Assembly (NCBI GenBank): GCA_019448385.1
Contig: JAGTXO010000070.1
Span: 78,540-142,539, forward strand
Reading direction: 5' to 3'
From: Diacronema lutheri
Taxonomy: Eukaryota > Haptophyta > Pavlovophyceae > Pavlovales > Pavlovaceae
DNA: 64,000 nucleotides
The notes under the pieces were generated by a model. The model was given only the letters and a program-made list of their open reading frames with translations, did no database searches and was not told where the DNA came from. The translations under genes were made by a program, and so were the position numbers. Positions 9,433 through 64,000 of the stretch are shown here, in pieces; the first letter of the stretch is position 1, and the number at the start of each line of letters is the position of its first letter.

Positions 9433-9460
9433 CGGCCGCCGGAGACGAGGACGCACTCAC

Positions 9461-16264: not shown

Positions 16265-16282
16265 GTACGACCCGGGTCGTAC
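16265..16282. repeat. Perfect 18-bp palindrome
   Basis: GTACGACCCGGGTCGTAC is its own reverse complement. It lies about 50 bp upstream of a TATATA motif and the dispersed repeat. It could be a dimeric factor site or a hairpin; the sequence does not say which. Confidence 0.8.
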
Positions 16283-16330
16283 TCTCAGCCTTACACTGGC
16301 CGGACCAGCCCGGACCGCGCCGTATATAGA

Positions 16331-41715: not shown

Positions 41716-42136
41716 GTGCGGCACACACTGCGTATAGATGGTCAAGCCAAATCCGATCAGGGGCACGATCGCGCCCCGAGTGCAGCGCGGGCCGTTCGGA
41801 AGGACGTCCTTGTGAGGGAGCTCTTCGCGTTTGGCGAGCGGGGGAGCACGACGCGCAGCGTTGCTGCGGCGGCGTGCGGGCGGCGAGCAGCGGTCGGGCT
41901 GCTCGCGACGAGGCCGGAGCAGACGGCGCCGTGGCCGCCGGCGCAGGTGACGCGCGCCGACGAGCCGTAGCGAGCGTCCGTGATCCGCACGGCGGTTGGA
42001 GCGGGCCGGCTGGTGCGGCGCGCTCGGCCACGGGTGGCGGCGTGCACGGTCGTGCCGCGCGCGGCACGCGTCGCCAGCCGCGCGCGACCTGGGCAGAGCC
42101 CGCAAAGCGTCGACCGCTGCGCGGCTCGGCCGTGCG
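41716..42136. other. 3' flank of the Fanzor gene; candidate guide-RNA and element-end region
   Basis: No protein is supported. The region lies directly downstream of the Fanzor stop codon on the minus strand. In characterised Fanzor and TnpB loci the guide (omega) RNA is encoded at or just past the 3' end of the nuclease gene, towards the element end. The region ends next to the proline-rich gene, so the element's right end must lie within it or in the acidic tail-coding part. I could not fix a boundary or terminal hairpin by eye. Confidence 0.35.
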
Positions 42137-45100
42137 TCAACGCCGGCCGCGCTTCGGCCCGCGCGCGCTGCCGCCGCCGGCACTGGCGCTGGCAGCTCCG
42201 CGGGCGGGGGTGCGGGCGCGAGCGCCGCCGCCGCCACCGCCGCCGCGCCCGCCGCCGTCGTCGCCACCGCCGTCGCCGCCGCCGCCTCCCCCGCCGTCAT
42301 CGTCGTCGTCGCCGCCGCCGCCTCCGTCTCCGTCGCCGTCGCCGTCGCCCTCGCCGCCGCCGCCGTCGCCGCTGGCGTCGTCGTCGTCGTCGTCGTCGCC
42401 CTCGTCGTCGCCCTCGTCGCCGCCGTCGCCCTCGTCGTCGCAGTCGTCGCCCTCGCCGTGCACCATGCGCTCCTCACGCTCCCACACCTCGCCGCGCGCC
42501 CACCAGGCGAGCACGAGGGCAAAGCGCTCAGGCGTCGACGTGGTGTCGCGCCCGGCCGCGCGCGCCGCAATGTCGTGCACGTCGTAGAAGATGTTGCGCG
42601 CGGCGTTGTAGTCGCGGTGCACGGGCTTCTTGCCGCCGTTGCACGCCGGGCAGATGACGAGCGCGTGCACCGTGCGCGTGCCGCCCTTTGCCACGGGCAG
42701 GCGCGGGTTCTGCGCGAGCTCCGCGCCGCAGCGCTGCAGCCTGCCGCCCTTGGCGAGCCGCGGCATCGAGCAGTGCATCGACGTGTACGGCTCGGGTACG
42801 AAGACGGCCGCGACGCCGCGCCGCCGCAGCTCGCGCAGCAGCCCCACCTGGAAGGCGGGCGGCGCGCCCTTGGGCTGCGCGCCCTTGTGGTCGTGCAGCC
42901 ACTTGCCCACGCACACGAGCAGCCGGTCGCGCGTCACGCCGTCGACGCAGTGCGCCGCGATGAGCGCCTCGGCGACGCGCGCCGCGTTGGACCGCCCGCC
43001 GCTGTCGCGCCGCCAGCGCTCCTTGCGGCGCGCCGGCGCGTCGTACACGTGCTCGGCGGCGCGCTCGCGCACCCGCGCGCTCTCGCGGTGGAAGGCGATG
43101 TATTTGCCCGCGTCGAGCACCTTGGCGCTGTGCGCCTCGCCAAGCCGCGCCTCGTCCGCCTCCACGCTGAACTCCTCGCCGCGCCCGTCGGTGCGCACGC
43201 GCCGCCGCGCCGCGTTGGTCTTGGCCGTCTCGCGCGCAAAGCCCGCGGCGCGCGCGCGCGCGCGCTGCGTGAACTGCCGCCAGACGGCCGCCCGCCCGAC
43301 GTGCGCAGAGTAGGTGGTGATGTTGCCCATGTTCGGGTCGGCCGCGACGACGACCGCCTCCTCGATGTCGATCGCCCGCCGCAGCTCGGAGCCGAGCGCG
43401 ACGGCGATGCGCCCGTCCGGCCGGCGCCAGCGGTGCAGGACGCTCGAGCTGCCGGCCGGCGCCTGCGCCTTCGGCACGAGGACGGTCGCGACGGCGTGCA
43501 CGGCGACGCCATCCGTCACCACCGACGTGACGGGCTGCCGGCCCGGGAGCGGCACGCGCGGCAGCGGCGCGAGGCCCACCCACGAGCGCCGCGCGTGCCA
43601 CGGCAGATCGGCCGGCGGCCGCTCGCGCCCGGCGTAGTCGAAGACGCGGTTGGAGATGTCGAAGCGCGTCGCGAAGACCGCGTACCTGACGCGCACGTCG
43701 GACATTGGCGGGACAAACGAGCCGCCTTGAGCGGTCCACTTGATCGGCTCGCCATCGTGGTCGCGCAGGTCCAGCGCCTTGAGCCGCGCGCGCAGCTCCT
43801 TGCGCTCGTCATCCGAAAGCGTCACCCAGATGGCGCTCGCGGCGAGGCGCACGTTGCGCGGCACCTGCGCGCAGCGCGCGGCGCGCGAGCGCGCGGGCGC
43901 GTGACCAACCTGGCCGCGGGGCGGCGCGCACGGCGGCGGCGCGCGCGCTTGGGCGCTCGGCGGCGGCAGCGGCAGCCACGCCTCGCGCGCACATTGTGCG
44001 TGCGCAGCGGCGCCACATTGTACCGCGGCGGCCGTCCGGTCAGCTGCGTGTGGATGTGCGCGAGCCGGCAGAGCAGCGCCTGCCCCTCGGCCACGTGCTG
44101 CAGGGTGCGGATCTGCACGAGGAAGTAGCGCGTCGTGTGCCGGTCGTAGTTCCACCTTTTCGTGGGCGTGCACTTGTAGTCGATCTTGTGGAGGACCATG
44201 TCGGGCAGGTGGCGGTCGAGCGCGGCGGGGCAGCCGACGCGCGCGCCCTCCACGTCGCCGCGCAGCAGCCGCTCGCACAGCTCGCGCACGCGCGCGTTTC
44301 GCTGCATCTCGGGCAGCGCGACGAGCGCCTCGTCGCGCTCGACTGCCGCGCGGACGACGTCGCGGAGCAGCCCGTTCACGACGCGCGATGGATGCATCAG
44401 GCACGCGGTGGACACCTGCGTCGCCTCCGCCTCGAGGATCTCCGTGAGGCCCACCGCGCAGACGGGCTGGACGCCCTCGGCCATCTCGCCGACGGCGCGC
44501 GCCGTCGCCGCCTTGGTCTGCGCGGCGGCTTGCTCGGCGGGCTTGCCTCGGGGCGCTGCACCGTACGTGCTCTCGTCCTTGTGCCAGCCGATGGCCGAGA
44601 AGATCGCACGGACGGTTCCCTTGTCCATCGTGGTCGACGTGTGCACGCTGGTCGACGGGCCGCCCGACGCCGCGCCGACGGCCTGCGCGCTCGCCACCGC
44701 AGCCTCGTCGCGCACCACCTTGTTGATGACGCGGTACGCCTGTGTCGTGAGCCTGTGCACGGCCGCCGCGATGCGCCGCAGCTCCTTCCGCGCACCGGGC
44801 TGCGCCGTCACCGCCTGCGGCCCCGCGTTGAGCGTCGAGCGCTTGACCACGAAGCCCGGGAGCACGCTGACGCGCGTGCGCGCCGTCGCGCCGCCGGCGG
44901 CGCGCGCGCTCGGCGCAGCGGGCTCGTCCACGCGCGCGCGCTCGACGCCGCGCGCGCGGGGAACGCTCGGCGCGCGCGCGCTCGCGGCGTCGCGCGCGCT
45001 CGCGGCGGCACCCGCCGCGGCGCGCTTGCCCGCGGCGCCCGACTCGCCGTGCGCGCGAAGCGGCGCCGACGCCAATGCCGACGCCGCGCCCGCGCCGCCG

Positions 45101-45225
45101 CTGCCGCTGCCCGATACGCCCGCGCGCCGCTTCTGCTCGTCGCGCGTCTTGCGGAACTGGGCGACGAGGTCGCTGCTCACGTTGGCCTCAGGCTCCCACG
45201 TGTCGGCGCTCTCGTCGTAGCCCCG
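42137..45225 (-). CDS. Fanzor RNA-guided nuclease with chromodomain half at its N-terminus, two exons
   Basis: Eukaryotic TnpB relative: a guide-RNA-directed DNA nuclease. Exon 1 is 45225-43993, exon 2 is 43864-42137. The 128-bp intron has CACAAT|GTGCGC and GCGCAG|GTGCCG borders, phase 0. The RuvC residues are all present, numbered from the codon after the TGA: Asp587 in VVVAADPNMGN, Glu769 in VFVPEPYTSMHC, Asp829 in VHRDYNAARNIF. Before Glu769 stands KGAPPAFQVGLLRELRRRGV, the usual Fanzor segment. The zinc-ribbon keeps CPAC but the first Cys pair is altered (HCSMP, RCG). The tail after RuvC-III is Asp/Gly-rich. No ATG starts the exon: its first codons (RGYDESADTWEPEANVSSDL) finish the chromodomain begun in the giant frame. 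An independent start could use the ATG at 44628, giving about 787 residues. Confidence 0.9.
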
Positions 45226-45228
45226 TCA
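45223..45228 (-). promoter_or_regulatory. In-frame TGA-CGG at a conserved chromodomain Trp: candidate readthrough site or nonsense mutation
   Basis: The minus strand reads CGG ATC AGG TGA CGG GGC TAC GAC. The frame before (FRIR) and after (RGYDESADTWEPE) is one chromodomain, where the missing residue should be the aromatic-cage Trp of the K-W-K-G segment. TGG to TGA is one base change. TGA followed by CGG is the type II stop-readthrough context known from some plant RNA viruses. CAG|GTGACG here also resembles a splice donor, but no short downstream acceptor would keep the domain. Confidence 0.7.
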
Positions 45229-48200
45229 CCTGATCCGGAACTGGAACGTCACCTTCTTGCCCGCCTTGCGGCGCTCGTCGACGACCGCCTCGACCTCGTA
45301 CGTGCGCGCCTCCTCGTCGACGCTCGCGCCCGCCGCGCTCGCGCCCGTGTCCGGCCACCCAGCGACCGTGCCGCCCAGCCTCTCGGCGGCCGCGCGCAGC
45401 TGCCGCTCGCGCTGGGCGGCCGCGGCGCCTCGCGCGACCAGCGCGGGCAGCATGCCCGCGCCGCCCGCGAGGCCGTGCGCGCCGACGCTGGCGGTCATCA
45501 GCGCGTCGAGGCACGCGAACGTTGCGAGCGCACGCGCGCCATCGTCGCCGCCGCGCGGCTGCGAGCGCACGACGGGCGATGGCCGCGGCTCCCCCTCGGC
45601 CGCGAGCAGCGGCCAGATCGCACTGGCCAGCGCGACGGCATGCGCGCCGACCGCGACGGCCACGTCCGCGTCGAGCGGCGCAAAGTCGTAGCGCACGAGC
45701 GCGGCCGGGCGCGAGTCGTCCGTCGGCCGGTCGGCGACGAGCAGCCCGACCGGGCGCGGCGGCTCGCCGGACGGCGCGGCGACGGGCACGCAGAGGAGCA
45801 CGACGAGCAGGCGCGGCGTGCCGCCGAGCAGCGCGCGCGCGGCATCCGCCCCGTCGGCTCCGCCGCGCGCGGCCGCGGCGAGCAGCTCGGCCGCGCGCGT
45901 CGGGCCCAGCGCCGTGCGCGCGTCCTTGCGCGCGCGTGCGCGGGCCGTGTACGCGGCGCAGGCGTCGTCGAGCACCGCCGCGCTGGGCGCGGTGCCAGTC
46001 GTCGCCCACGCGCGCAGCGCGTCGCGCACCCGCGTGACGATCGCCTGGTCGACCGCCGCCTCGCCGGCAGCGTGCGCCGGCGCGCACGCCGGCGGTGCGG
46101 CGGCAGGCGCGAGCGCGGGCGCGCCGTCGGCGCCGTCAACGCCGACGGCGCCGTCGGCGCGCCGCCACGCGAGCTTCGCCTCGATCTGCTGCCGGACGGC
46201 GTGGCAGTGCCGGTCGATGCCGCGCGCGTCGTCGAGCGCGGCCAGCGCGTCCTCAGCGGCGGGACGGCCGCTCGCGTCCGCGACGGCCTGCAGGCAGAGC
46301 AGCGCGGCCGCACGCGCGTTGCACGCGCTCTGCGGCTCGGGCGCGAGCGCGAGCTCGAGCTCGAGCGGCGACGCGCCTCGCGCCGCGGCGATCGCGTCCA
46401 TCAGCACGTCCAACCGCTGCACCAGCGCCCTGTGCGCGTCGCGCGGCGCGCCCGTCGACGGCGCGCGCGAGCGCGTCGCCAGGAGCCCGAGCGCGCGCGC
46501 CGGCGCGCCCGCCGGCGTGTGCAGCACGAGCAGCGCCGCGCCCGCCAAGCTCGCGTTGCGCGTGACGAGCGCGAAGATGCGCGTCGCCTCGTGCGCGCCC
46601 ACCGACGCCCAGATCGCAGCGCGATCGGCGTCCGTCTGCGCGTCGCACAGGTCGCGCACGTCGTCCGGCGCGAGCAGCGCGCCGCCGCCGGCGGAGCGCG
46701 CGACGATCGCCCGCGCCTCCGCCACGAAGACGGCCTGCGGCAGGTCGGCGTGGCGCGCGTCGACGATGGCGCGCGTCGCGTGCACGCCGAGCTCCACGCC
46801 GCGGTAGAAGGCGCGCGCGTTGGCCGCGCGCGCGTGCGCCGGCCGTCCGTCCGCGTTGCGCCTCGCGCGCGCCTGCTTGCTCGTGCGCGCGAGGCCGTCG
46901 CGTGGCGGTGGCGGCAGCGTGGCGAGGAAGCGCGCGGCGGGCGGCGGCGCGCGCACGCCGCGCTGCCGCCGTGCGATGGCCGCGAGCCGCCGGCCCGCCG
47001 CGCTGCCGCCCGCGCCGACGTGCTGCCGGCGGCCGAGCGCCGCCGGTGGCGGCGGCGGCGGCGGCGCGGCGGCGGGCGGCGGCGCGACGGCGGGCGGCGG
47101 CGCGGCGGCGGGCGGCGGCGCGGCGGTGGGCGGCGGCGCGGCGGCGGGCGGCGGCGCGGCGGCGGGCGGCAGCGGCGGCGGCGCGGCGGCGACGGCAGCA
47201 CCAGTCGGCTTGTCCGCCCACGCACCCGAGACTCTGTCCCAGACCTTGCCCCATGGCGCGCGCCCACGCGGCCGCGCGAACTGCCCCGGCTCGAGCGCCT
47301 GGCCGCGCTTGGCGGCGGCGGCGGCGGCAGGGGGCGGGCGGCCGGCGCGCCAGTCGAAGACAGGTGCAACCGTGGCGGCAGGCGCCGAGTGCCGCGCGTC
47401 GGTCACAGAGCGCGTGGTGCGCGCGGCGACCGTGGCACGCCTGGCGGGCGGGCGGTGAGCAGCGCCCGCCGGCGCGCCGGCGGGCGCGGCCGCCTCGAGC
47501 CCGGCGGAGGCGCCGCGCTTGCGCTTGCGCGTGCCGCCGCGCGTGCGCCTGCGCGCGCGCCCGCCGCGCGCCCGTTCGGCCTGCGCGTCGCCAGCCGCGT
47601 CGCCGGCCGCGTCGCCGCGCCGCACGTAGACGACCGCGAACGCCTCCTCGCCGGTCCCGTCGACGCCGCCGCGCGCGCGGCGCAGGACCGACCGCCACTG
47701 CAGCCGCCGCGCGCGGCCGGGCTCGCACGCAAACCAGCGCCCACCGCGCCTGACGACGGCCACAAAGTCGTCGTCGCGCCGCCCGCGCCGGCGCGTGCCC
47801 AGCAGCACGCACTGCACGTCGAGCCAGCCCTCGTGCCAGTCGGCCGTGCTGGGGGCGACGCGAATCGACTGCGGGAGCTCGACGCCAAAGCCGGCGAGGC
47901 GCACGATGTGCGCGACGATGACGCTCGAAATGGCGGGGGCGCTCGACGGGTCGCCCGCTGCAGCGAGCACCGCCCCGCCCCAGTGCTCACGCGTGACGCA
48001 ATCCGCGTCCTCGACGTGCACGTGCGCCACGCTCGCGCCGAGCTGGTGCAGCAACGCGCAGATGTCGGCGTCGACCGTCCTCTCCTCCTCGGCCGCCTCG
48101 GCCGTGCCGCGGGCGGCGGCGTCGCCTGCCGGCTGCCCGAGGTACGCGATCGCCCGCTCGACGGCCGCGCGCTCCGCACGCGCTGCGCTGTCGATCGCCG

Positions 48201-51200
48201 CATTGCCGACGGGCGCGCGCAGCGCCGCGATCGCGTCTTGCAACGCCGTCGCGTCGCCCGTCGCCGCCGCCGCCGTCACCGCCGCCGCGCTCGCGGTGCC
48301 GTGCGCGACGGCGTGCAGCGCGGCGGCGCGCGCGGCGGGGATGCGCCCGTCCAGCGCGAGCACGAGCGGCGGCCCGGCCGGCGTCTGCTGCCGCCGGTGC
48401 CGCCGGCTCGCAGCCGGGTGGTCGGCGCGCGCGCGCTCGAGCCGCGCGCGCCGCTCGACGACGCGCGCCCAGAAGGCCTGCACCCTCGGCTGCGCGAATG
48501 CAAGCCAGCCGGCGCCGCGCGTCACGACGTGCACGACGATCCGGTCCTCGTGCCTGAGGTACTGCACGTAGAGCGCTTTGCGCACGCCGAGGACGTGCAT
48601 GCCGAGCTGCAGCTGATCGCGGTGCGGCTGCGGCGGCCCGTCCTCGTGCGCCGTGGCGCCCGCCTTGGTGAGCGTCTTCACCTCGACGAGGACCTGCTCG
48701 TTGTTTTCGGGGAGGATGGCGAGCCCGTCCGGCGAGAAGGCGAACGGCGCGCTCTTGTCGTGCGGGTCCGCACGCACCATCGGCAGGTTGCACACGACGG
48801 TGATGCCGTACGCGGCCGCCAGCTTGCGCAGCGCGACGGCCTCGCCGAGGATGCCCGCGGTCGTCGCCTTGGTCCGCACCTCGCGCCGCCGCCGGTGCAC
48901 GTACTCGTCGGTGAGCGTCTCGTGCGCGACGCCGGCGTTGTCGTTCACGACGTCGCCAACCTTGCTGCCCGTGACCTCCTCCCATCGCTCGTCGTGCCAG
49001 CGCGGGCTGCGCTGCGCGGGCGCGCCCGCGCCGACGGCGTCGAGCACGCGGCGCAGCGCTGTGCCGTCGGGCGCAGCAGGCACGCGCGCGCGGTCCTGGG
49101 CCTCGCGAGCGTCGAGGACGCGGCCCGTAGTGGAATCTTGGGGTAGGTCGAGCTTGCTCGCCTCGCCGTAGCGGCTCTCCAGCTGGCGCGGTGCGTCGGC
49201 AGGGCCGCCGTCCGTGCGCGCACCCGACGCGCCCGCCAGTGCACGCGGCGCAGCGTCCGAGGCGCCCGCCGCGCCCGCGCCGCCGCCAATCGCGCCAGCG
49301 CACGCGCGCGCCGCGACCTGCGGACGGCCAGCCGCAGGGACCTCGTCCGCTCGGCCGGCCGCTGCGTCGGCCGTCCGCTTGGCCACCTCGCGCACGTCTC
49401 CGAGCGCGAGCGTGGCTGGCGCCGTCCAGCTCCCGTTGCGTTTGTCCCAACATTTGAGCAGCCCGCCAAGGAAGGGCGTGCCCGTCGGGCGGTCCTCGGG
49501 CACCTCCGCCAGGATCGCGTCGACGCGCAGCGCGGCCGCCACATCGCAGAACGCGCGCGCGGCGCGCGCCATCCGCTCGGCGCGCGCGCCGCCGTCGTCC
49601 GCCGCGCGGCGGATGGCGTGGCTCACGTGCGCGACGCGGAGCGAGACGACGGCGTGCGCCGGCGCGTCGGCGCCCGTGCCGAGCGTGTGCCGCCGGATGG
49701 CCAGCTGCCCATCGCCCATGCGCGGCGGCAGCGACGCGCACGCCGCGACGGTCGTCGTGCCGGCCGCGCTGTCGCACAGCCAGCTCGCCTCGCCGCCGCC
49801 CGCAAACTCAAAGGTCGCGAAGCCCTCGCGGCCGAAAAGCGCGACGAAGTGGTCGAGCACCGCCTTGTTGATCGCGCGCGCCGCCGGCCGCGTCGATGCG
49901 CCGCGGGCAGCGCCACCCGCCGCGCCGCGCGCATCGCTGCACGTCGCAGGGCAGGTGCAGCCGGACGCGCGCACGCCGTCCGACCGCGTCCGCGGCAGCT
50001 CGAGCTCGCGCACCTTGGGGCAGAACCAGAGCGGGTTGGACGCCTCGAGGCACAGCACGACGAGCCGCCCGTCCGTGCCGGCCAGCGCGCGCGCGTCGCG
50101 CAGCAGCTCGACGGCGAGCTCGGACGTCGCCGCGTGCACCGCCGGCTCGCCCGTCGCGCGGTCGGGCGGGAAGAGGCCGCCGCCGACGAGCGGGCTGGGG
50201 CAGCGGCCGAGCATCACGAGCAGCGGCGGCGGCGGCGTCTGCGGCGCCTGCTGCCCGACCGCAGCCGCCGTCAGCCCGGCCAGGTCGGAGCTCGTGCGGA
50301 GGGCCTTGAGCGCGACGCGCGAGCCGGTGCCCGCCTGCTCGGAAAACGTGGCGAGCATGGCGCACATGCTCGCCCTCGCGCCGCACTGCCAGCTGACGCG
50401 CGCGAGGAGGCCTTCCAGCGTGTCGTTTTCGCGCGGCCGCGTGACCGCGTCGAGCGCCGCCGGGCCGAGCTGGAGGCTGCCGGGCGTGACGCACAGCACC
50501 GCCTCGTGGTAGGCGCGCAGCAGCTCCCTCGGCAGCTGCTCGGCGGGCGTCGCCGCCTGCCCGCCCACCCACCGTGCACCGTGGCCGCCGTCGCCCGCGC
50601 CCGCGAGCCGGACCGCCGGCCCGCCCGTGATCGCCGAGGTCGGTGGCGTGCCGAGCGCGTCGACGAGCGCGCGCACGGGCGCGACACGCCTGCGCGCAGC
50701 GTCCGCGCCGACGGCGAGCGCGGCGATCTGAGCGCCGTCCCATGCGCGCTCCCTCGCGTCGTCCCGCGCGGCCGCCGGCGCGGCGCCCGGCCGCGCGCCG
50801 GGCGGCACCGCGCACGCCGCCGCGACGACCTCCGCGCGCGCGCCGGCGGCGTCGGGCGCGTGCAGCTGCGCGAGCGCGCCAAAGAGCGCGGCGGCCGAGC
50901 GGTAGCGGCCGTGCGCCGCGACGAGCGCGTAGAGCACGCGCAGCGCGGCCACGCCCGCCTGGTCGGGCGCGTCGTCAGCGATTTGCTCGACCTCCCACGT
51001 GCGCGTGGGCGGCGGGCTGCCGTCGGCCGGGTCCGGACGCAGCGCCCACGCGCGCTCGACGATCGCGTTGAACACGCCGTGCGCGGCGCCCTCGTCAAAC
51101 TCGGCGGCGCCCGCCGCGTGCGCGCACCACCCGTGCACGCGCGACGTGGGCGCGTCCACGGCGCGCTGCACGACGAGCACCGCCGGCCGGTCGACGCAGC

Positions 51201-52713
51201 CGAGGCTCACCGCCGCGTGCTTGCCCTCGAGCAGCGCCGCCGCCGCAGCCTCGACCAAGGCGTCATCAGGCGCGTCGCCGACGACGACGGCACAGCCGTC
51301 GCCGTACTCGGCCTGCATCGCGGCGACGCACGACGCGACAAAGTCGCCGCCCGCGGCCGCCGCGTGTCGCGCCGCCAGCATCCGGCGCGCGATGGCAAGC
51401 CAGACGTACTCGGCCGGCGCGCGCGCGGCGCGCGCGCGAGGCGCGCCGGCCGCGCCGCGTGCGCCCGCGCGTGCGCCTCCAGCGGCCGCAACGGCCGAGG
51501 CGGCTGGAGCGGCGGTGAGCGTGCGCCGCGCGCGCTTCGCCGGCCGCGTGATGGGCGATGCACCCGCCATCGCACCGCCCGCAGCAGCCGGTGCGGCCGC
51601 CACAGCGCCCGCCGCAACGCCACTCGTCACGACGCCCGTGGCGGGCGGCGCGGCGGCGGACGTGGCCGCCTCGACGGGCGTCGCGCAACTACCGCCAGCG
51701 GTCGCGGACGCGCCCGGCGACGCGTCGGCGAGGAGGTGGCGCAGCACGCCGCGCGCGAGCGCGACTCGCACGGCGAGCGTCAGCGCGCGCAGGCGGTCGG
51801 AAGGCGAGGCGTCGCGCTCGGCGTCGGCGGACGTGGCGGCAGCAGGCGGGGCGGCGGGCGGCACGGCGGCGGGCTGGGCGGCCGCCGGCGCAACCTCGTC
51901 GGCCTTGGCCAGCCAGACGAGCCCGGCGACTGCGAGCACGACGCTGTACGCGCCGACATCGTCACCCGCAACGCGCGCCAGCCGGGCGTGGGCGTCGGCC
52001 TCGGACACGGCGACGTGGAAGAGCACGTCGTCGCGGGCAGCTTGCTCGGCAAACTGACGCAGCTGCTTGGCCATCGTCACGCCGGCGACGCACGCCTCGC
52101 CCGCCTCTGCCTCGACCTGCTCGTCCTGGCCGATGGCGGACGCGCCGGCCTCGGCGCCAGCGTCGAGTGTCCGGCGGCGCTCGAGGGCGAAGCCACGCAC
52201 ACAGACGCGCTGGAGGCCGCCGAGCGCGCCCGCCTTCTCGTGCAGCGCGCACGACAGCTCGACCACCGAGTCCACGCGCCTCGCGGCGGCGCCCCCCCGC
52301 TCGCCGCGCGTGGCCGCGCGCACGACGAACACCGTGAATTGCGCGCGCTTCGCCGCGCGCGCCGACGCGCACGCGTGCTTCAGGAGCCGGCAAAGCGCGG
52401 GCCTTTGCGCCGCTGCGCCCCGCGTGCACAGCAGCAGTTGGCCGCGCTCGTCGCCCAGCTCCTGCTCGACGGCGGCCTCGAGCGCGTCGTCCGTCAAATC
52501 GCCGTGCTCCGTCGAGGCGAGCGCGCGCGCAGCCGCGAGCGCCAGCTCGCCTGCGCTCGCGCGCCGCCGGCGGCGCGCACCGGCGGGCGCGTGCGGCGCC
52601 GACGCGTGTGACGACGCCGCCGCGTCCGCGCGCGCACACGCGGCGCGCAACGCCTCACGCGCCGAGGCGGCCGCGCGCGCCCTGGGCGCGAGCTTCAAGA
52701 ACGTGCGCGCGGC

Positions 52714-52789
<76 letters not shown>

Positions 52790-55700
52790 TCGCCCGCGTC
52801 GCCGGCCGGCGGCGGCGGTGGCGGCGGTGGCGGCGCGGCCACGGCGGCGGCAGCAGCGGCGGCGGCGGCGGTGGCGGCGGCGGCGGCGCCCAGCGCGGGC
52901 GGCGGCGGCGTGGCGGCGGCGGTGGCGGCGGCGGTGACGCCAGCGGCGGCCTTGGCGCCGCGCGTCTGCGGCGGCGTTTCGGCGCCATCGGGGCTGCCCC
53001 CGCCGCGCACCGCGCTCGTGACCGCGCAGACGCCGCCCGGCGCACGATCGCTGGCCGCGCCGGTCAGCGCGACGCGGAGGCGCTCGCCGACAGCGTACAT
53101 GTCCGCCACGCTGAACGTGCGCGGCGCGGACGAGCAGCCCGCCGCGGCGAGCGCGTCGTTGAGCGCGCCCACTATCGCGAGGCCGCACGTCGCGCCACGC
53201 TGCGCCGCCTCGTTGAGCAGCAGCGCGCGGCGCACGCGCGAAATGTCGAGACCCGCCGCGTGCAGCGTGGCAGTTATCGCCTTGGCGAGCATGAGCGCCT
53301 GCCTGCAGGGCGACGCGAGCGTGTCGACGAGCACCGCGTCGTAGCGATGCTCGCCCGCGCGCGCGACGCGCACAAGGCGCAACGCGGTGAAATGGCCGGA
53401 GGCGAGCTGCGCGCCGTCGTCACCGCCCGCGCCGCCGCGCTCGTCCGACGGGCTCCACACGCCGATGACAGCCTGCGTTGTCGCCTCGCTGCGCAGGCGG
53501 TGCAGCAGCGCGGCGCGCTCGGCGTCGTCCTGAAACACCGCGGGTTGCGCGGCGAGCGGCACGTGGCAGACATGCCCGCCGCCGGCCTGCCCGTGCACGC
53601 GCAGCACGACCTCGCAGCACGCGTCGACGGTTGAGGCGAGCATGTCGCCGCTGGCGATGCGCTCCACCTCTGCCTGCGGGAGGCCGGCGCTCGCGGCGGC
53701 GGCGGCCAGCCGGCGCGCAGCCGCGTCGCCCGCCCACGCAAGCAGCGCCGAGTTGGCGGGTTGGAGGGGAAGCTCAAGGGCGGCTGGTTCGGTGGCGGTA
53801 GCCTCGTTGGCAACGGGCACGTTGGCGGTGCGCGCGTTGGCGGCGGGCGCGGCGGCGATGGCTGGTGGGGCGGAAGACGCGCCCGCGGCGGCGGGCGCGG
53901 ACGCGGCAGCGGCAGCGGCTAGTGGGGCGGGGAAAACGCCGTCGGTGGCAGGCGCGGAGGCGAATGCAGGAGCAACTAGTGGGGCGGGAAAATCGGCGGC
54001 AGGCGCGAAGGCGGATGCAGCAGCGGCTAGTGCGGCGGGGAAAACACCGTCGGCGGCAGGCGCGAAGGCGGATGCAGGAGCGCCCAGCGGGGCGCAGAAA
54101 ACACCGTCGGCGGCAGGCGCGAAGGCGACAGCAGCAGCGGCCAGTGGAGCGGAGGCGCAGGGCCACGCGCGCGCCAGCCGTGCAAGCCCAAGCCGCGCGC
54201 GAGCGACGCACGCGCCGATGGCCGAGGCGGCGGCGCAGGCCACGACGTGGCCTGGCACCGGTGTGGCCAGCCGCTCGCGGGTGTGCACGTCGAGCCGCGC
54301 CCCACGCCAAGAGCGGCGGCGCGCTGAACGGAGGCGCGCGACCCCGATCGATCCGCCCGCGCACGCGCGCGCCGGCTCAGTGTGGCCAACGCGCGCCGCT
54401 ATGCAAGGCGCGCGCGCGATAACGGCGGCTGTCGGCCGTGGCGTGCGCGTGGCGGCGCCGCGGCGACGGGCGCGGCACACGAGCCGCTCGGGCGCGCCGC
54501 CGCCGCGCGGCACGATGTCGAGCAGCACGGTCACGCCGCGCGCGCGCGCGACCGCCGTGCACGCGAGCCGCACGGGCAGCGGCGGCCCGTCCGGGCGCGC
54601 GAGCGCCGCCACCTCGGCGTCGGTGAGGCTGTGCAGCTCGCGGCGCGCGCGCGCGAACGCGGCGATGTCCGCGCGCAGCTCCGCGTCCGTGCCGAGCGCG
54701 GCACGCGCGTGCACGGGGAGCGACGCGCGCAGCGCGTGGAGCACGCCGCCGCGCGCGCCGCGCGGCGCCGGCGCGCGCTCGCGCTCAGCGCGCGCGGCGC
54801 GCGTGAGCTCGCGCACCGCGCGCGCGAGATTGCGCCGCGCGGCCGCGACGGGAGGGCTAGGTGCGCGCGCGCGCCGGTTGTAGCGCGGCCGCGCCGAGTC
54901 GAGGGGCGGCGGACGCGGTGCGTACGCCGCGGCGCGGCCCGCGCGCCAAAAGGCCGGCGGCGGGCGCAGCTCCGTCGCGTCGACCGCGGCCGCGAGCGCG
55001 CCGAGCGCGGCGTCGCTGTCGCCCGCCGCGTCGGCCGCGTCGACGAGCACGAAGAGCGCGCCGAGCGCGCGCGACGCGGCCGCCTGCGCGGCGGTGGGGC
55101 GGGCGCAGGCAGCGACGCATGCGGCCGCCATGCCGCGCGCCGCGGCGAACGCCGGTGACGTGACGGCCGCGCCGATGGCAACGGCGGCGGCGGCGACGGT
55201 GGAGGCGGCAGCGCCGGCGATGGAGGTGGCAGCGGCGGCGGCGCTTGCCATCGCGCGGCGCGCGAGACGCGAGGCGCCACCGACCGCCGCCGCCGCAGCG
55301 CGCGCTGCGCGCGCGCCGGTGGCGCGCATCGTCGCCGCGCCAGGCGCCGCCGCGCCGACGCCGCCGGCGCCCGCGCCGTCGCCGCTCTCGGCCGTGCAGG
55401 GCTCCGATGGCGAACCCGGCGTGCGCTGGCGCGTGATGCGCGCGCCGAGGCGCGCGCTCCGCGCCGCGCGGCCGGCGACGTCGAGGAAGCGCCGTGCGCG
55501 CGCCGCGCGCAGGCCACGCGCGCGCGGCGGCGCACCGACAGGCGCCGAGCGCCGCGGCGCGCACGCCGGCGCGTCGCTGTCGGGTTGCGCAGCGCGCGCG
55601 CGGGAACTCGGCGCGGCGTGTGCGGGCGGCGGGCGCGCGCCCGCGCGGCGCAGAGGCGCGAGGCGCCGGCCGCAGACGAGGCGTGTGCGCAACCAGGACG

Positions 55701-58700
55701 GCGAGGGCCGCAGGGCGCCGTCGACGTCGCGCATCGGCGGGCCGCGAGCCCGCCGCGCAGCCGTGCGGCGCGCGCGAGGCGCTCGGCGGCGCGCGCGCCG
55801 CACGGCGCGCGCGGCGGCGCGCACGCCAGCGACGGCTGCGGCCACGCCGCGCGCCAACACGGCCGCGGCGTGCGCCATCGCACCGAGCACGGCGCGTGGC
55901 GCGCCGAGCAAGCGCAGCAAGCGCGACGCCGTCGCGCGCGCCGGCGCACCGTGTGCAGGGGCCTCGCCAGCGCCAGCACCGACGCCGCCATCGCCGCAGC
56001 CGCAGGTGGCGTCGCCGCCGCCGCAGGCGTCGCGACGGACGCCGCCGCCGCCGAAACAACCGCCGCACACGTCGCCGCCGACGTTGCCACCCCAGCCGCC
56101 GTTGCGTGCGCAGGTGGCTGCGGCGCGTGCGTGCGGGAGGCGTGCCGTGCGGCGCGCATCACACGGGCTGCGCGACGCGAGCGACGCCGCCGGGGTCCCC
56201 GCTGCGCCAGGCGCGCCGTGCGCGCCAGCCTCGCCGGCCTCGCCGGCGCGCGGTCGCGCGCTCGCCTCGACGTGGCCGCCTCCGCCGCCATCGCCGCCGT
56301 CGAACCGGGCGGCGGAGGGCTGCCGCTCGAACCGCTCGTCGGCGTCGGCCGCCACCGCCGCCTCGCGCTCCGCCGCCGCGGCGGCCGCACGGCGCGCGTG
56401 GCGGAGCGCGCGGCCGCCGTCCGCTGCGCGGCGTGGCGGCGCGGGCGCGGGCTTCGGCGCGCGCGGCCCCTCGGCGCGCTCGCGGAGCACGGCGAGCGGC
56501 GTGCCCGTGGCGACGCTCGTGCAGACGCGCCGCAAGGCGGCGCTTACGCACGCGTGGACGACGCGCGCCGTCCGCTTGTCGGCGGCGCGCGCGGCGCGGC
56601 GCGCGGCCTTGGCGGCGGCCTTTTTGGCGCGCCTCTGCTCCGCCTGCTCCGACAGCGCGCGCGCCTGGCGCTCGGCTGCGAGCGCGTCCTCGGGCGAAAC
56701 GGTCGGCCTCGGCGGCCGCGCGCGCGCGCTGCGACGCTGCGCGCTGCGGCGGTCGGACGGCGGCTGCCGCGGCGGCGAGGACGGCGAGCGCGAGCTCGGC
56801 GTGGGCGACCAATCGCCGCTGACGGTTGCGAGCGGCGCAAACGGGTTGTCGTCCCCGCGACCCGCGGCGTGCGACAGTGCACGCGGCGTCGGGCGCCGGC
56901 CGACCGCTGGCGGGCCCCACTCGGACGGCGGCTCCGAGGGCGAGCGCGCCGTCGGCGCCGCGCGTTGCGCGGCCGGCGGCGCCTCCCGGTCCAGCGCCGC
57001 CTGCTCTCTCGCCGCGGCCTGCTCGTCACCCTCCGGCACGCCACGCGGCGCGAGCACCGCGGTGGCGCAGCGCGTCGCGTTGAGCAACGCCGCCTCCATC
57101 TGCCGCACGCTGGCCTTGGCGCACGCCACACCCTGTCTCGCCCGGCGCAGCGCCTCGTGCGCGCGGCGCACTTCCGCGTCGGCATCTTCGCGCATGCCAA
57201 AGTGCGCCTGTTGCAGCCGCAGGTCCGCAGGGCGCCCCTGCGCGCGAGGGGCACGGGCGCGGCGGCGCGCAGGTGACGGAGCTGGCGCGCCGTTCTGCGC
57301 TGCGCGCACGCCAATCGACGGGCGCGCGCGCGGCGGGGCGCGCGCGCGCGCGCGCGCGCGCGCGCTGCCTACCCAGCCGCCGGCCGGCTCGCGCGAGCGC
57401 GCCAGCTGCTCCGCCGCCTCGGCGTCGAGCACGCGCTGCTGCGCCTCCTCCTCGCCCAGTGCAGCGAGGTGCAGCCGGCGGGCTGCCTTGCGGCAGTTGC
57501 CCTCCGCCTTGCCCACGGCCTTGCGCGCCGCGTCGACGGGGTCGTCGTTGGCTCTGGCGCGCCTGCGCTTGCCCTTGTCGGCGGGCGGCGGCTCGGCGCG
57601 CTGCAGCGTGCCGAGCGCGTCGTCGGCTCCGCGCGCGGCCGCCCGCGGGCGGCGGGCCCCAAAAAGCGCACCGGTCGCCGTGCGCGCCGCGCAAGCAACG
57701 ACCAGCGCTGACATGCCGGCGAAGACCGCACCGCCCAGCGCCACGGTTGCCACGATGCGCAGCGTCCCGTGCGCAAGCTGCGCTGCCTCCGCCGCTTTGG
57801 CGGCCTCGCGCGCGCGCGCATCGGCGGCTCTCATCTCGTGCAGCAGCCCGGCCGCGCCGCTCGCGCCGTCGCGGCCGCGCGCGAGCTCGCACAGCACCGC
57901 CGCCGCGCGCCGCGTGGGCTCGCGCGCGAGCAGCTGCGCGCCGCCGTCGGGGCGCAGCTTCTCAACGAACTCGACAAACGTCGCGTCGCGCCAGAGGGAC
58001 ATGCGGAAGGCCCTGTGCACCGCCCCCTCCTGCTCGCGCATCCGCCGTGCCGCCCGCCTGCCGTCGCGCGCGTGCGCGTGCGCGGCCGCGTCGAATCCCG
58101 CGACGCCGCGCTGCGCGTCGCGCGCGGCCGACGACGGCGCCGCCGCGCTGCCCGCCAAGGGCGCCGCAGCGGCGACGCGCGCGTGCGGAGCGACGGGATC
58201 GCCGGCGGCCGGCGGCTCGGCGCGCTGCGGCGTGCCGTTTGCTCCGCGCGCGGCCGTCCCGGGGGAGATGGCCGCGATGGCGCCGCCAGCCGCGCCGCGC
58301 GCCAGCCACGCGCATAGGCTGCCGACGAGCTCGCCGAGACCCCCGACGGTCGCCGCGGCGGCGAGTGCGCCGGGCTTGCCGGCCGACAGCGGCTCGCGAG
58401 CGTCGTCGTCGCAGCCGCCGGCACCCGTCTTGGCGAGTGCGTCGCGCTCGCCCTCGACGCCCGCCACGACCGCCGCCCCTCCGTCGTCCGCCGCGCCGGC
58501 CGCGCGCGCGGCCGGGCGCAGAGGAGGCGTGCCGGTGCAGCCGTCGCCGCTCGTCTTCGCCGTTTCCTCCACTTTGGTCACTTCGTCGCCACCTGCGCCA
58601 TCTCCGACGCCGGGGCCCTTGGTCACGCTTGCCGCCATGCGCGCCGTGCCCGCCGGCCAGCCCGCCGACTGCTCGAGCGCGGCGGCGAGCGGCGCGACGC

Positions 58701-61047
58701 GCGTCGACTCGGGCGCGCTCTCGTCATCGGGCTCGAGCGCGTTGTGCAGGCGCGCGAGCGCGCGCTCGACGGCCGCGGCGCCACTGCCGGGGGCGCGGCT
58801 CGCCGCGCGCACCGCGCGCCGCCAGGCCGGCGCGAACATGAGCGCCGGCTCGAGCGCCGCGAGCGCGCGCGCCTCGCGCGCGTCGCTCGCGCCGAGGCGC
58901 GGCGGCACGCGCGCGGCTCCGCGCGGCGCGGTGCCTCGGAAGCGTGGGCTCAGCGTGTAGGCGAGGTGCTGCGGCACGCCGCGCGCCTCCGCGCGCGCGC
59001 GTCCGTCCTCGACCTCGCGCCGCGCCTTCGCGATCGCCGGCGTGGCGCGCGCGAGCCAGTCGGGGTCGGCGGGCAGGTGGATCACGACGAGAATCGGCGC
59101 CCAGTCCAGCCGCGGGTTCTTGTGACGGTCGGGCACGACCCACACGAGCAGCACCGTGCCCTCCGCGCCGCACGCCGCCTCGTAGATCCTGGGCTGCGAG
59201 CGCCAATCGGGCCTGACGCGCAGCGCCCGCGCGTGGTCGATGGCGGCGGCGCGGTCGCCATTGAAGTGAACCGTCGTCACCTCGCCGATGACGGACCGGC
59301 CGGACCGCCAGCAGAACACCGCGTCCGCCGACCCGCCGGCGATGGCCGCGAGCGATTCGGGCGCGGCGAGCCGCGGCAAGCCCTCGAAGGCGGCAAAGTC
59401 CTCGTGCGCATTGTACACGCCGCCCCAGCCGTCGTGCGCGTACGCGCGCGCGGCCGCTCGTACCGCGCGCGGCTGGTTCTCCACGCCCGACGTCATGTGC
59501 CATGTCGTCCCCGCGAAGCCGGGCTCGCCCAGCTCGGCCCGCACGACGGCACCGTACCCCGCGCCCTGCGTCGGGGCGGCGAGGTGGTGCATGCCCGCGC
59601 CGGTCACGCCCTCCGTGCGCTGCCGCGTGACGATCGTGCCCGTCGCGTGCGCGAAAAGCGTGTCGACCACGGCGGGCGCGCGCCCGCTGTTCGCCCGTAG
59701 CCGCGCCCTGCCCGCTTTTAGCTGCTCGGGGTCCTTGGCGTCGTACACGCGCGCGTCCGCGTCGCCCTCATCAGGCGCAGTGTAGACGCAGCGGCGTTCG
59801 AGCGGCGCCGAGCCACCGCCGTCCGCCGCCGCCGGCGAGGTTGGCGCCGCGCCCGCCGCCACCGCGCTCGTCGCCGCCGTGCCCGTCGCCACCGCCGCAG
59901 CCGCCGCGCCCGCGGGGTCGTCGTCCCCGTCCTCCGCGCCCTCCCCGTCGTCAGCGGTGGTGGCGTCGCCATCGTCCCCGTCGCCCTCGCCCCCGCCGAG
60001 GCTGCTGAATGGTCGGGGCCCCCACGCCGAGGCGGCGCGCCGCTGCGGCGCACGCGGCGGTGGCGCTCGCGACGGCGGCCTTGGCGCCGCCGCGCCGCGC
60101 GGCCTGGCCGCCGTCGACAGCGCGCGGCCTGCAGCGCCCGTGAGCGCGTCGAGCGCGGCCGTGCGTGCGATGCGGTCGTCGGGCGCGCGCAGCGCCGCCT
60201 CGACGGCCTGCAGCAGCCCGTCGGGCGCGGATCCGCCGACACTGGCATCGCACGCCTCGGCGAGCCGCGCGGCCTCGGCGAGCCGCGCGGCCTCGCGGGT
60301 GAACGGGCCGAAGCGCCTGGCGCGGTCGCCGAGCAGAGCGCCGATGGCGGCGCGGAGCGTGCGCGCGCGGGTCTCCTCGTACGCGGCCGTCGTGAGGCGC
60401 GCGAGGCGCGCGTCCAAAGCCTTCTTGATGTCGACAAGGACACTCGCGCGGCGGCCGTAGAGCGTCGATGCGCTCGCCACGACCTCGGCCGCGACTGTTG
60501 CCGCGGCGAAGCAACACGCGGCCCCACTCTGCGGGGGCGCCTTGAAGGCATCGATGGGCGGCGCTGTTCTGCCGATGCGCTGCGCAAGCTTCTTGATGAG
60601 CACGCCGGCCGCCGTGGCGTACGCCGATTCGCCGTTGCCCAAGGTGCGCGAATCGGCGAGCAGGGCGAGCGCGGCGCCGGGCGGCGCGCCGCGCTGCGCG
60701 GGCGGCGCGAGGAGCAGGTACGCCGCCGTCCAGTGCACGAGGCCGCTGGACGCGCGGAGGCAGAGCGGTAGCACGACCACGAGCACCTGCCCAAACCGGT
60801 CCGCATCCGCGCATGCTTTGCGCAGGTTGCGCAGCGCCACCTTGAGCGCATGCTGCGAGCACCCCGTGTCGCCCACCCTAACCCTGCTCGTGCCGAAATC
60901 CGCGTAACGCAGCAGGGCGATGAGGCAAGTGGATGGGACCACGTGGGGGTGGGTATCTCCCGGCGACAGAATGGTGCTGAGGGCCAGCGAGAAACTGTCC
61001 GAGCCGCCCCGCCCGCCGGGCAAAGCGTCCTTCACGGAGTCCTCCAT
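45226..61047 (-). CDS. Giant protein: two Ulp1-like proteases, YqaJ nuclease, chromodomain start (5,273 residues)
   Basis: One uninterrupted frame from the ATG at 61047. Ulp1-like domain 1: His105-Trp106 (SSGLVHWTAAYLLL), Asp132 (LLADSR), Gln173 and Cys178 (PPQSGAACC). Domain 2: His2552 (SGHFTALRLV), Asp2575 (AVLVDTL), Gln2616 and Cys2621 (AAQRGATCGLAIV). Spacings match Ulp1. Between them are a possible membrane segment (RIVATVALGGAVFAGMSALV), a coiled coil and Pro/Ala-rich linkers. YqaJ-type nuclease, about residues 4010-4215: SPRWHDERWEEVTGSK, Asp4107 (FSPDGLAI), Glu4122 and Lys4124 (VLVEVKTL), then HRDQLQLGMHVLG. A KRKR basic cluster follows. The end (EVEAVVDERRKAGKKVTFQF) is the first half of a chromodomain. 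Role inferred: replication, processing or targeting protein of a large mobile element. A left copy exists at 1-6466. Confidence 0.85.
47040..47175 (-). repeat. Tandem Pro/Ala-coding repeat in the giant gene
   Basis: About seven in-frame units of 18-21 bp encode a P-P-P-A-A-A repeat between the YqaJ-containing part and the C-terminal part. Probably a flexible linker. Confidence 0.85.
52708..52792 (-). repeat. Trinucleotide repeat encoding about 28 alanines
   Basis: A GCG/GCC run in frame within the giant gene, just after the second Ulp1-like domain. A Pro run and a second Ala run lie beside it. It keeps the reading frame, as expected for a translated repeat. Confidence 0.9.
53870..54140 (-). 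repeat. Degenerate tandem repeat of about 60 bp coding FAPAADGVF-type units
   Basis: Four to five units with the core GCGGCAGGCGCGAAGGCGGA encode variants of S-A-F-A-P-A-A-D-G-V-F-P-A-P-L. They lie between the left part of the giant gene shared with the other copy and the second Ulp1-like domain. All units keep frame. Confidence 0.8.
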
Positions 61048-62952
61048 CTGCAGACTGTGGGCACGTCAGTGTCCGGATGGCGGCCCGGATGATACTTGGG
61101 AGAATTTACATGATGCCCTGGAGAATGCCCCGCTCTCCCACAACCAGGACCCGCCAGCGCGCCGAGCCTACTCGTTTGCCCGCGCCGCCTCTCTTTGCGC
61201 GCCCGAGCGCGGCCTCCGAGCGCGGCCAACGTCCTCCGGGGGCGTGCATCGTGGCTGCTCGGAGGGGCTGCGACGCGGCGAAAGCTCGCTGCGCGGCCGC
61301 AACGTGAGCGCGCGCGCGCGGCCGCGCGCCGGCCTGCGCTGCTCTGCACGGCCGCGCGCCGGCCTGCGCAGCCTCGTCGCGCAGCGTGAGCGCGAGCGCG
61401 CGCGAGGTGAGCTCGGCGGATGGGTGCGCGGCGGCGTTGGCGGCGGGTGCGGCGGCAGGCTGGGCGGCGGGTTTGGACGGAGAGTGTCGGGGAAGAACGG
61501 GGCGCATCCTGGCTGGGAGTTGGACGGCGCCCACCACGCGCTGGCGGATCCTGGTTGCCACCACCACCCCCCCCCCCCCCCCCCGGAGACGAGGACCAGG
61601 GGCATGGCCGACTCGCTGCGCCGCACAGCGCGCGGCGCGCGGCATGCTGCGCGACCTCAAGCACATCCAGCCGCGCTCCGCCCACGCAACGCGCGCAATG
61701 CCGCGTTGCACTGCAGGTGTGCACGTGCGGCTCTCACGCGCACTGTGTTGCACGAACGGCATCACGCCACCGAGCTGCGTCCGGACCACGCGCCGCGCGC
61801 AGGCGACCACACAGGGGCGCGCCGCGCCGCGCGTGCGCGCCCTCGCAACCGTTGCAGCACGCTCTGCCTTGCACTGCGCCGAGCCGCCGCGCGCTGTGCG
61901 CGTGCATGCAGGGCGCACGCGTGCGACGAAGCGCGCGCGCGGCGAGGCGCGCGGGCGGCTCGCTGCGCGGGCGGCAACGCGCCCAGCTGCGCCCAGGCCA
62001 GGCGCGCGCCCGCGAGTGCCACCGGGACGCACTGCCCCCGCCGGGGTCGCCGCGCGCTCTGTGTGTGCGCTCGCGCGCTGCGAGCGCGGCGGAACGTTCG
62101 TGCATGGCGCGAAGAGCGCGGCACCCGAAGACGGCTGCCCCGAGCCCGCGCCGGGTGGCAGCGAGCGGCGGCACCTCCTCGGCGAGCCCGCCCCGCGCCT
62201 TCCCCTCCACGTGGCGTTTTGAGGCAGACGGACACGCGCCCACACTGCGACTGGGCACGCTGCTCGAGGCAGACACGCACCCAACGCGCGCGCACCACGC
62301 GCCCGCGTCGGCGGGCCGGTGTGAACGAGCGAGAGCTCGGTGTCGCCAACGGGGGCACGGGCGCGACTTCGGTCCGCCTCTCGACGGACGCAGGCGACGC
62401 TGCCGGGAACTTCCCCGACGCCTGCACATCCAGGGCTTCGAGGTACAGAGCTGGGCAACAGTGCCGCTCGTCACCGATGAGGCGGCCAAGCTCGCTATCC
62501 TTGCTGCCCTCGGCTCCACCAAACAGCCGGGCGACCCAACGGTTCGTGATCGCCTGGCCGCCAGGTGCGAACCGCGCCCGTGCAAGCGCTTCACCCGCAT
62601 TCTCCGCCCCGCTGCGGACGTCCGCCTGCCGGCCGCGAACACGGCCGGTGCGCGTTGCCGCCTGGCCCAACACGAAAACCCGCCCGCCCCCGAGGCCGCA
62701 GGTCCTACCTGCCCAAGCGCAGCCCAACGGCACGCAGACAGCCCGCCTTGGCAACCGACTCGTGCGCGAGCGCTCCGCCCTCCACAAGAGCCTGCCCCAC
62801 GCCACCGCCGACGCGGAGCCAGCGCAGCCGACGCCCCTCCGCGACGCTCGCGCCGCAAGGCGCAAGGGCCCCGGCGAGACGGCGTCAACCAAGCCCGCCG
62901 CTGGCACAGCGCCGGCACCCGGAGCCCACCCCAAGCCCCCGCGCACGCCTCG

Positions 62953-62992
<40 letters not shown>

Positions 62993-64000
62993 ATCGGCGG
63001 ACCGATTGCGTTTTGGTGCGCCAGGCTCAATGCGCCATCGCAGTGGCGGGCCCGCAGACGCAGACGCTGACATGCCCAACGCTGGGCACTGAGGCCGCAG
63101 GCCGGCCCTCCTGGACCTGGCGGGCGAGCTGCCCGCGCAGCGGCCACGCGAGCCTCGCACTGACCGTGGCGGTCGCTGCCACCGTGATAGCTGCGGGTGC
63201 GGCGGCCTTGGCCCCAACCCCATCATCCGTCTTCATCCCCGCCCTGCTCGCGCTCGCGGCCTACGTCGGCAATCCCTGCACCGGGATCCGCCCCGCGAAG
63301 TCCACACAAGACTTATCCGTGCTGCACGCCAGCCGCGCGCGCCGACGCGCGCCGCTCCCACACGCTCACCTCCGTTTCCGCGGGCGGCCCAACGCCCCCC
63401 CCCCCCCCCCCCCCCTCCCCCCCCCCCCCCCCCCCGGCAGGCGGCCATCGAGCCGCATTAGCACACCCGCCCGGGGCCTCCCGCCGCACCCGCAGCGGCT
63501 CGGCGCCTTGAATCCTCCCGTCCCCCGGGGTGAGGCCTTTAACCCGGGCCCAGCGCGCTCCGACTGCCTCACGCGCGCCAGCGCCAACCTCGGCGGCATG
63601 GTAGACCCCGAGCGAAAAGCCGCACTTCTCGCCGTCCTCGTCAGGCGCAAGTACGTTATCCTGCTCCTACTGCCGACGCGGCTCCCGCGCGCGCGGACTA
63701 CTACGCCGGGCAGATCGCCGCAGTCGCACGTGAGTGCACACGTGCGGACAAGGCGCACACGCTCGACGTCCAGTTAGCGCACGTGCACGTGCGCGCCACT
63801 GGTCACATTTGAGCGTCCGTGCTCGCCCACAGCGTCGCCATCCACAAGATGCGCGCTGGAGCCATCCAAGCAGGGCTCTGCCTGCTCGGCTTCCGCAAGG
63901 CAATTTGGGCCGCGGACAGCGGACAGCGGACGGCGTGCGCGTGCGAGGTGCGAAAGGAGGAAGAAGGTAGGGAGAGTTGTGTGTGTGTGTGGGGGGGGGG
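54580..64000. repeat. Direct repeat, right copy (at least 9.4 kb)
   Basis: Matches 1-9427. It holds the first about 2,155 codons of the intact giant gene and its upstream region. The copy enters the same GT repeat and poly-G as the left copy and is cut by the window end at 64000, so the true length is unknown. Sequence left of 54580 cannot be compared because the left copy is cut at base 1. Confidence 0.95.
61048..64000. other. Upstream region of the giant gene, right copy; no gene resolved
   Basis: Counterpart of 6467-9427, with longer poly-C tracts (for example 62953-62991 against about 28 C in the left copy). The same coding-like islands are kept, on both strands, with few substitutions. 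No promoter element could be named with confidence. Confidence 0.5.

Follow-up and report, generated by a model that had tools for sequence, protein, structure and literature searches.

TnpB-type nucleases are thought to cut the empty sister site of their element, whereupon repair restores the element. This form of element retention has been extended to Fanzors in work that calls their role in eukaryotic transposons open (PMC10432273; this and the other papers named below are cited from excerpts), and Fanzor1 proteins have been proposed to travel as passengers of Helitron2 elements in Chlamydomonas (CRe-1, CRe-2 and CRe-3; PMC3627910). Here we describe a Fanzor at the end of a mobile element in the haptophyte alga Diacronema lutheri, found in a window, the whole stretch of DNA analysed, that makes up the terminal 64 kb of contig C21. 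This mobile DNA element of roughly 31 kb is very abundant and has spread recently; its last gene most likely encodes, in copies free of a TGA codon discussed below, a predicted polyprotein of about 6,260 residues, with protease-like segments, a lambda-exonuclease (YqaJ) domain, a chromodomain, one intron and a Fanzor as the most likely order. Whether this abundant recent element and the polyprotein of its last gene also work by the mechanism that we propose is, taken as a whole, a question we judge evenly balanced.

As in TnpB of IS200/IS605 and IS607, the predicted Fanzor combines the RuvC D/E/D residues with a zinc finger and is the last gene before the 3' end, where a guide RNA would be expected; unlike TnpB it is eukaryotic, spliced and joined to other domains, and a TnpA partner was not found. 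With phage nucleases of the lambda-exonuclease/RecE-type YqaJ group the element shares a near full-length Pfam YqaJ match, here within a eukaryotic polyprotein and with no annealing protein recognised. A chromodomain on the DNA-cutting enzyme of a mobile element is otherwise a trait of chromovirus Ty3/gypsy integrases, in place of which the present element has a Fanzor, with no reverse transcriptase match in Pfam scans. The chromodomain is documented as an accessory domain of Ty3/gypsy elements (PMC6338049). Likeness to CRe-1, CRe-2 and CRe-3 extends to the algal host, the repetitive nature, the exon-encoded Fanzor, the end hairpins and full-length insertions without target duplication (PMC3627910), whereas the D. 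lutheri element is 31 kb long, holds its Fanzor in frame with a chromodomain and YqaJ giant polyprotein, carries PIF1 and ubiquitin C-terminal hydrolase (UCH) genes, ends in CTATA and has no HUH domain that we could find. CryptonS and CryptonF-2_PS likewise come from protists and combine short terminal direct repeats with a C48-type protein (PMC3212892), here a candidate at motif level; the D. lutheri element differs in that no tyrosine recombinase was detected in it and in that a helicase, an exonuclease and a Fanzor are present. Both Helitron2 (hairpins, no duplication) and Crypton (direct repeats) are resembled, and the enzyme that defines each was looked for and not found in Pfam scans of the element. 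The architecture had been suspected to be undescribed, and no published description of it, or of the element, was found in the excerpts of open-licence PMC literature that we covered (subscription journals and supplements fell outside this scope); the excerpts of PMC10711439 name no such fusion.

Copies of the element across the genome

Two copies of the element lie in the window, in the same orientation.

41732..64000, minus strand: 3' two thirds of copy B, the 5' part being lost at the contig end, which is also the window end
1..16329, minus strand: 5' part of copy A (C21:65674-94868), with its 5' end CTATATACGGCGCGG at 16329

Copy B is 99.98% identical over 22,274 bp to a 31.07-kb copy on contig C3, which starts at 413833 and extends as far as the end of that contig (444901); the 3' end of copy B reads ...GACCATCTATAC, beyond which the flank is variable in other copies. 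Copy A matches copy B at 99.4% over 9.4 kb and the C3 copy at 89-99.7% in pieces. Across the genome sequence analysed (43.49 Mb in 103 contigs; the published assembly of strain NIVA-4/92 has 103 contigs totalling 43.503 Mb, a GC content of 73% and a largest contig of 3.042 Mb, PMC8379373) we counted 195 exact 5' ends, 180 exact chromodomain sites (a 34-base pattern spanning the position of the TGA) and 87 exact 3' ends, all of the last with a G after the true end, as the search pattern required. When 100 of the 195 5' ends were set against 40 of the 87 3' ends, 27 pairs resulted, 11 of them spanning 31.02-31.09 kb. Sixty of the 100 listed 5' ends pair with a chromodomain site (90 sites on contigs C1-C46, within 30 kb) and 40 are unpaired; the distances fall at 27.4-27.6 kb, that is, full length, in 33 cases, near 18.0 kb in 12 and at 22.5-23.4 kb in seven, with eight others. 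In the shorter deletion classes the missing pieces lie upstream of the chromodomain, and nine shortened copies with an exact 3' end (four and five) retain both ends and the chromodomain site. A 2-kb element probe gave 586 candidates, window included, and all 40 matches scored were about 100% identical. With these counts, and with copies almost identical where compared, the mobile element proposed in the sequence-only reading is plainly there. If the sampled pairs are typical, we estimate that the family amounts to some 4-5 Mb, or roughly one tenth of the assembly, and on that estimate it may exceed every other repeat family of the genome in size.

The deletion classes of about 21.6 and 26.3-26.9 kb recur, as if spreading as non-autonomous subfamilies. 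Copies also look mosaic: over window positions 45228-42137, comparison with the copy on C6 gives seven changes in Fanzor exon 2 and 19 in the chromodomain and Fanzor N-terminal part, and four of five other copies show the reverse, with 2-7 changes in the chromodomain and N-terminal part and 36-47 in exon 2, which suggests recombination between copies. An AT-richer stretch of the element interior, C3:415832-416703 (L041), holds several inverted repeats of 89-169 bp and 94-99% identity.

The giant coding frame and its chromodomain

The last gene and the sequence that follows it occupy the following positions in copy B.

43993..61047, minus strand: first exon (exon 1) of the giant gene, with 5,685 codons and a single TGA at 45226-45228
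60508..60738, minus strand: protease-like segment 1, assigned from the motif only (H..D..Q-x4-C, residues 104-180)
53179..53400, minus strand: protease-like segment 2, assigned from the motif only (H..D..Q-x4-C-G, residues 2550-2623)
48589..48999, minus strand: YqaJ/lambda-exonuclease-type domain, with PHROG, TIGRFAM and Pfam matches
45148..45300, minus strand: chromodomain, with Pfam Chromo and PDB matches in a TGA-free copy, here broken by the TGA
45226..45228, minus strand: the TGA, at the codon of the chromodomain cage tryptophan
43993..44868, minus strand: N-terminal part of the Fanzor, read in the giant frame, its start approximate and set by eye
43865..43992, minus strand: predicted intron of 128 nt, GT-AG, phase 0, its junction also spliced in the annotated protein KFE25_006464
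42137..43864, minus strand: exon 2, the RuvC/zinc-finger part of the Fanzor, 575 residues with D176, E358 and D418, and a stop at 42137
41732..42136, minus strand: 3' non-coding end with the terminal hairpin GGGGCGCGATCGTGCCCC, a candidate guide-RNA region

The single open reading frame (ORF) of 5,273 codons from which the sequence-only reading started is present on the minus strand at 61047-45226, closed by the TGA. Across 43993-61047 this frame contains one stop, against a mean of 37.4 and a minimum of 21 in 500 shuffles of codon columns, and the other five frames contain 14-64 stops each. It further has the highest GC content at third codon positions and the lowest at second positions in 49 of 56 intervals of 300 nt, a pattern that persists across the TGA. 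Given the few stops and the codon-position signal, the giant frame reflects one coding frame and not an accident of GC content: exon 1 is a single coding frame.

The chromodomain had been read as split by the TGA and completed in the same frame, and this proved right: copy L012, with a sense codon at that position, gives a full-length Pfam Chromo match (E 4.5e-13, 49.3 bits, well above the cut-off of 25.1), with CDY1 (5.5e-10) and HP1 (2e-9) among the matching PDB chains. The domain is most likely of the methyl-lysine type by its sequence; the methyl-lysine cage of HP1, which we take to correspond to Y, W and Y here, loses its W codon to the TGA. The window's TGA is an exception among copies: of the 180 sites, 100 are listed, and of these 97 have a sense codon and three the TGA, namely copy B, copy A (at C21:69156, outside the window) and the C3 copy. 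An alignment of 20 loci at this position likewise shows the TGA in the window and the C3 copy and a sense codon in the 18 others. The 6.7-kb tail is free of in-frame stops in five of six other copies compared, and in L012 the frame was read directly from the YqaJ nuclease via the chromodomain into the Fanzor N-terminal part. Since 97 of the 100 listed sites keep the chromodomain uninterrupted, the frame can extend from YqaJ through the chromodomain into the Fanzor N-terminal part.

The nuclease domain announced upstream of the chromodomain is confirmed as well. It matches PHROG 434 (RecE-like) at E 1.4e-16, TIGR03033 at E 5.5e-7 (29.8 bits, under the cut-off of 68) and Pfam YqaJ, near full-length, at E 8e-4 (20.1 bits, under the cut-off of 22), and the C71 copy exceeds the last cut-off with 28.2 bits; the PHROGs search returned this exonuclease and a weak helicase match, and nothing else. 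As a prediction, the lambda-exonuclease (YqaJ) domain of the giant protein is solid. Residues 575-592 of the same protein (59272-59325; DAVF...GEVTT) resemble by eye a second PD-(D/E)xK core, with no profile match.

The Fanzor and the joint with the giant protein

A Fanzor with all its RuvC residues had been placed within the giant frame. Its N-terminal part does lie there, whereas the part with the D/E/D residues (42137-43864) is in a different frame, linked through the predicted 128-nt intron. This exon 2 provides the Fanzor profile match that was foreseen, at E 4.2e-6 against PF07282 (27.2 bits, just over the cut-off of 26.3), and in the PDB it matches Cas12f1 at no better than E 0.009. It carries the Fanzor motif D-x(125,275)-[TS][TS]-xx-C4 zinc finger-x(5,50)-RD of Bao and Jurka (PMC3627910), as D176, x184, T361-S362, C365/C379/C405/C408 and R417-D418 (spacings by eye), with E358 as candidate catalytic glutamate. 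The predicted protein may act as an RNA-guided nuclease. Among 8,000 scored candidates exon 2 has three relatives (96, 50 and 44% identity in alignment), all of which start at the intron boundary or at most 4 residues from it, as expected if the intron is common to them. D176 is invariant in all four aligned Fanzors, the glutamate and last aspartate are visible in three (the fourth ends before the zinc finger), and the 50%-identical relative retains the catalytic residues. Fanzors are listed in viruses of Phaeocystis and Emiliania in a table of PMC3627910; among 4 and 46 pattern matches in viral contigs, no homologue was confirmed.

The splice junction also occurs in KFE25_006464 (P0007, contig C69), an annotated D. 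lutheri protein in which THN is joined to VPRN exactly as here and whose annotation pipeline used RNA-seq. This protein, the only one that the chromodomain and Fanzor N-terminal part retrieved as a query among 8,000 scored candidates, contains the end of the N-terminal part and comes not from the gene of the element itself but from a diverged Fanzor fragment to which three SAM domains are fused; such a chimera possibly reflects domestication or a gene-model error. The genome also holds a second, distant Fanzor family, with 14 PF07282 matches scoring about 44 bits and roughly ten that score lower (e.g., C9:378667-378894, L084): six loci compared are 25-30% identical over the matched part, and in the locus read a 1,681-codon frame that contains tandem repeats has the Fanzor at its C-terminus.

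Several observations weigh against a single polyprotein that works as we propose. The joint between giant protein and Fanzor is known from reading DNA alone, and that between chromodomain and Fanzor from one species only among the 8,000 scored candidates. With residues 3380-4330 as query, no homologue of the giant protein appeared among 1,064 scored candidates, in a search that admitted proteins of 0.55-1.75 times the query length. Substitution ratios within the family, from six copies of which one, L029, did not align meaningfully in the giant part, show no clear selection, with too few independent changes. AlphaFold returned a predicted local distance difference test score of 40 both for Fanzor exon 2 with four sequences and for protease-like segment 2 alone, without an alignment, and the 3' end folds no better than shuffled sequence (z -0.91). 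Finally, the annotated start of KFE25_006464 is an internal methionine within the Fanzor N-terminal part.

The last point leads to the first alternative, in which the Fanzor, alone or together with the chromodomain, is made from its own start or transcript, separately from the giant protein. Also in its favour are the ease with which GC-rich frames stay open in this DNA (211 ORFs of at least 150 residues, many overlapping) and the fact that all relatives found consist of nothing but Fanzor pieces; against it, the coding signal and the absence of stops continue through the entire joint, and the chromodomain is open in 97 of the 100 listed copies. We regard this alternative as possible, if on the unlikely side.

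A second alternative has the polyprotein cleave itself, by its cysteine-protease segments, into mature proteins that act separately, in the manner of retroviruses and adenoviruses. Chains of such size are seldom one functional protein, which together with the 5,685 codons of exon 1 and two widely spaced protease-like motifs speaks for this option. The H-D-Q-C pattern starts at residues 105 and 2552 and is absent from the other five frames; shuffles contain it once in 6 of 1000 cases and twice in 0 of 1000, for a pattern that was written after the sequence had been seen. A C48 profile, by contrast, has no match on the giant protein at E up to 1, yet the same genome yields nine matches elsewhere, none of them on C21. 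The two Ulp1-like proteases of the sequence-only reading thus stand at motif level only, as candidates, and self-cleavage by them is to us a doubtful but serious contender.

Proposed mechanism, element ends and the missing transposase

To return to the single polyprotein, we propose that its chromodomain would hold the Fanzor on methylated chromatin bearing sister or allelic target sites, where the Fanzor would cut under the guidance of RNA derived from the 3' end of the element and its flank. The exonuclease and the PIF1 helicase, activities that copying by recombination requires, would then resect and unwind, so that recombination would copy or retain the element, in line with the proposal for TnpB, and the proteases would trim the polyprotein or strip SUMO or ubiquitin off host factors. 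The helicase and a UCH are encoded upstream of the giant gene and are seen in the window in copy A.

9834..11246, minus strand: UCH gene of copy A, PF00443 E 4.6e-9, 36.7 bits over the cut-off of 23.9
11841..13964, minus strand: PIF1 helicase region of copy A, its extent taken from the C3 copy; the 5' part of the gene is deleted here

In the C3 copy the PIF1 gene, split by apparent introns, matches PF05970 at E 1.5e-24 and Pif1_2B at 4.5e-13. These two genes, copy A, the intron with its change of frame, the rarity of the TGA and the missing transposase are what the sequence-only picture had lacked.

The element begins with CTATATAn-GGCGCGG... and finishes with ...CTATAC, where the first C of the left end is missing in 2 of 26 left ends and n varies, being mostly C or G; CTATA at both ends makes a short direct terminal repeat. 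Close to its 5' end the element has a perfect 18-bp palindrome, and close to its 3' end a hairpin. At the junction of copy A, host sequence ...TTAGTATAT adjoins CTATATAC, and because of this junction and several others in one repeat we favour CTATATAn at the left junction as the element's own end rather than host sequence. Where both flanks were compared, in 16 copies, one (C9:2907803) has a 13-bp duplication and the other 15 match over at most 3 bp. Pfam scans of the element yielded no enzyme to insert new copies: neither HUH nor tyrosine-recombinase nor DDE domains were detected in the six frames of C3:413833-425600 or in the giant region, scanned in its own frame only, and an H-x-H motif scan of the element by eye revealed no Rep.

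One way to supply the missing enzyme is a Helitron2-like rolling-circle element, with Fanzor and giant gene as passengers of a RepHel encoded at another site, the model put forward for Chlamydomonas CRe-1, CRe-2 and CRe-3. Hairpins near both ends, 15 of 16 copies free of target duplication, a PIF1-type helicase whose first piece has Helraiser as its best solved match (E 8.8e-7) and the description of Fanzor1 in Helitron2 (PMC3627910) agree with it. The ends, CTATA...CTATAC, do not, nor does the absence of HUH and Helitron_like_N from the element: the genome holds a single Helitron_like_N match, C63:35738-36019 (L082). An asymmetric terminal repeat of 9/10 bases is equalled by 53 of 300 shuffles. 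We consider such an element improbable here. The C63 match is in itself a candidate source of a trans-acting enzyme.

The same low standing goes, in our estimate, to a tyrosine-recombinase element of Crypton type whose integrase has diverged and whose companion protease would be of C48 type, an unlikely reading for which the ends speak: CTATATAn... and ...CTATAC give short direct repeats with mostly no target duplication, where Crypton ends are defined by 4-6-bp terminal direct repeats and no target duplication, and in CryptonS terminal direct repeats of 5-6 bp occur together with C48 proteins (PMC3212892). Against this reading, the six-frame scans of C3:413833-425600 contain no integrase, and the 16 Pfam Phage_integrase matches in the genome are far fewer than the element copies, with none on C21. 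One of the 16, C69:95472-95945, may sit in or beside an element copy that ends near C69:118980.

An artefact of assembly or gene models is scarcely credible: several contigs begin or stop at the element's end, but the assembly is from PacBio reads at about 315x coverage (PMC8379373), the 180 sites agree, and 16 copies show both ends with different flanks.

A bolder form of our proposal would make this a new class of mobile element, with a chromodomain-tethered Fanzor as its engine, its own exonuclease and PIF1 to finish the copying, and no transposase, recombinase or HUH enzyme; this we advance as speculation, with little confidence. Between copies A and B the window holds host genes on the minus strand (25207-26478, 28068-31196 and 34367-37891) that are Sey1-like, weakly similar to the DNMT1 replication-foci domain (a match just under the cut-off) and of RING finger type, along with G-rich minisatellites at 24607-25309 and 28349-28490 that include about 16 copies of GGGAGGGAT.

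In D. lutheri, then, a Fanzor occurs in an abundant algal element of near-identical copies, in frame with a reader of histone marks and alongside recombination enzymes of phage type. If the joint protein is made, it would be a natural chromatin-directed RNA-guided nuclease; and as D. lutheri is grown in culture, the role of a Fanzor in transposition would be testable there.

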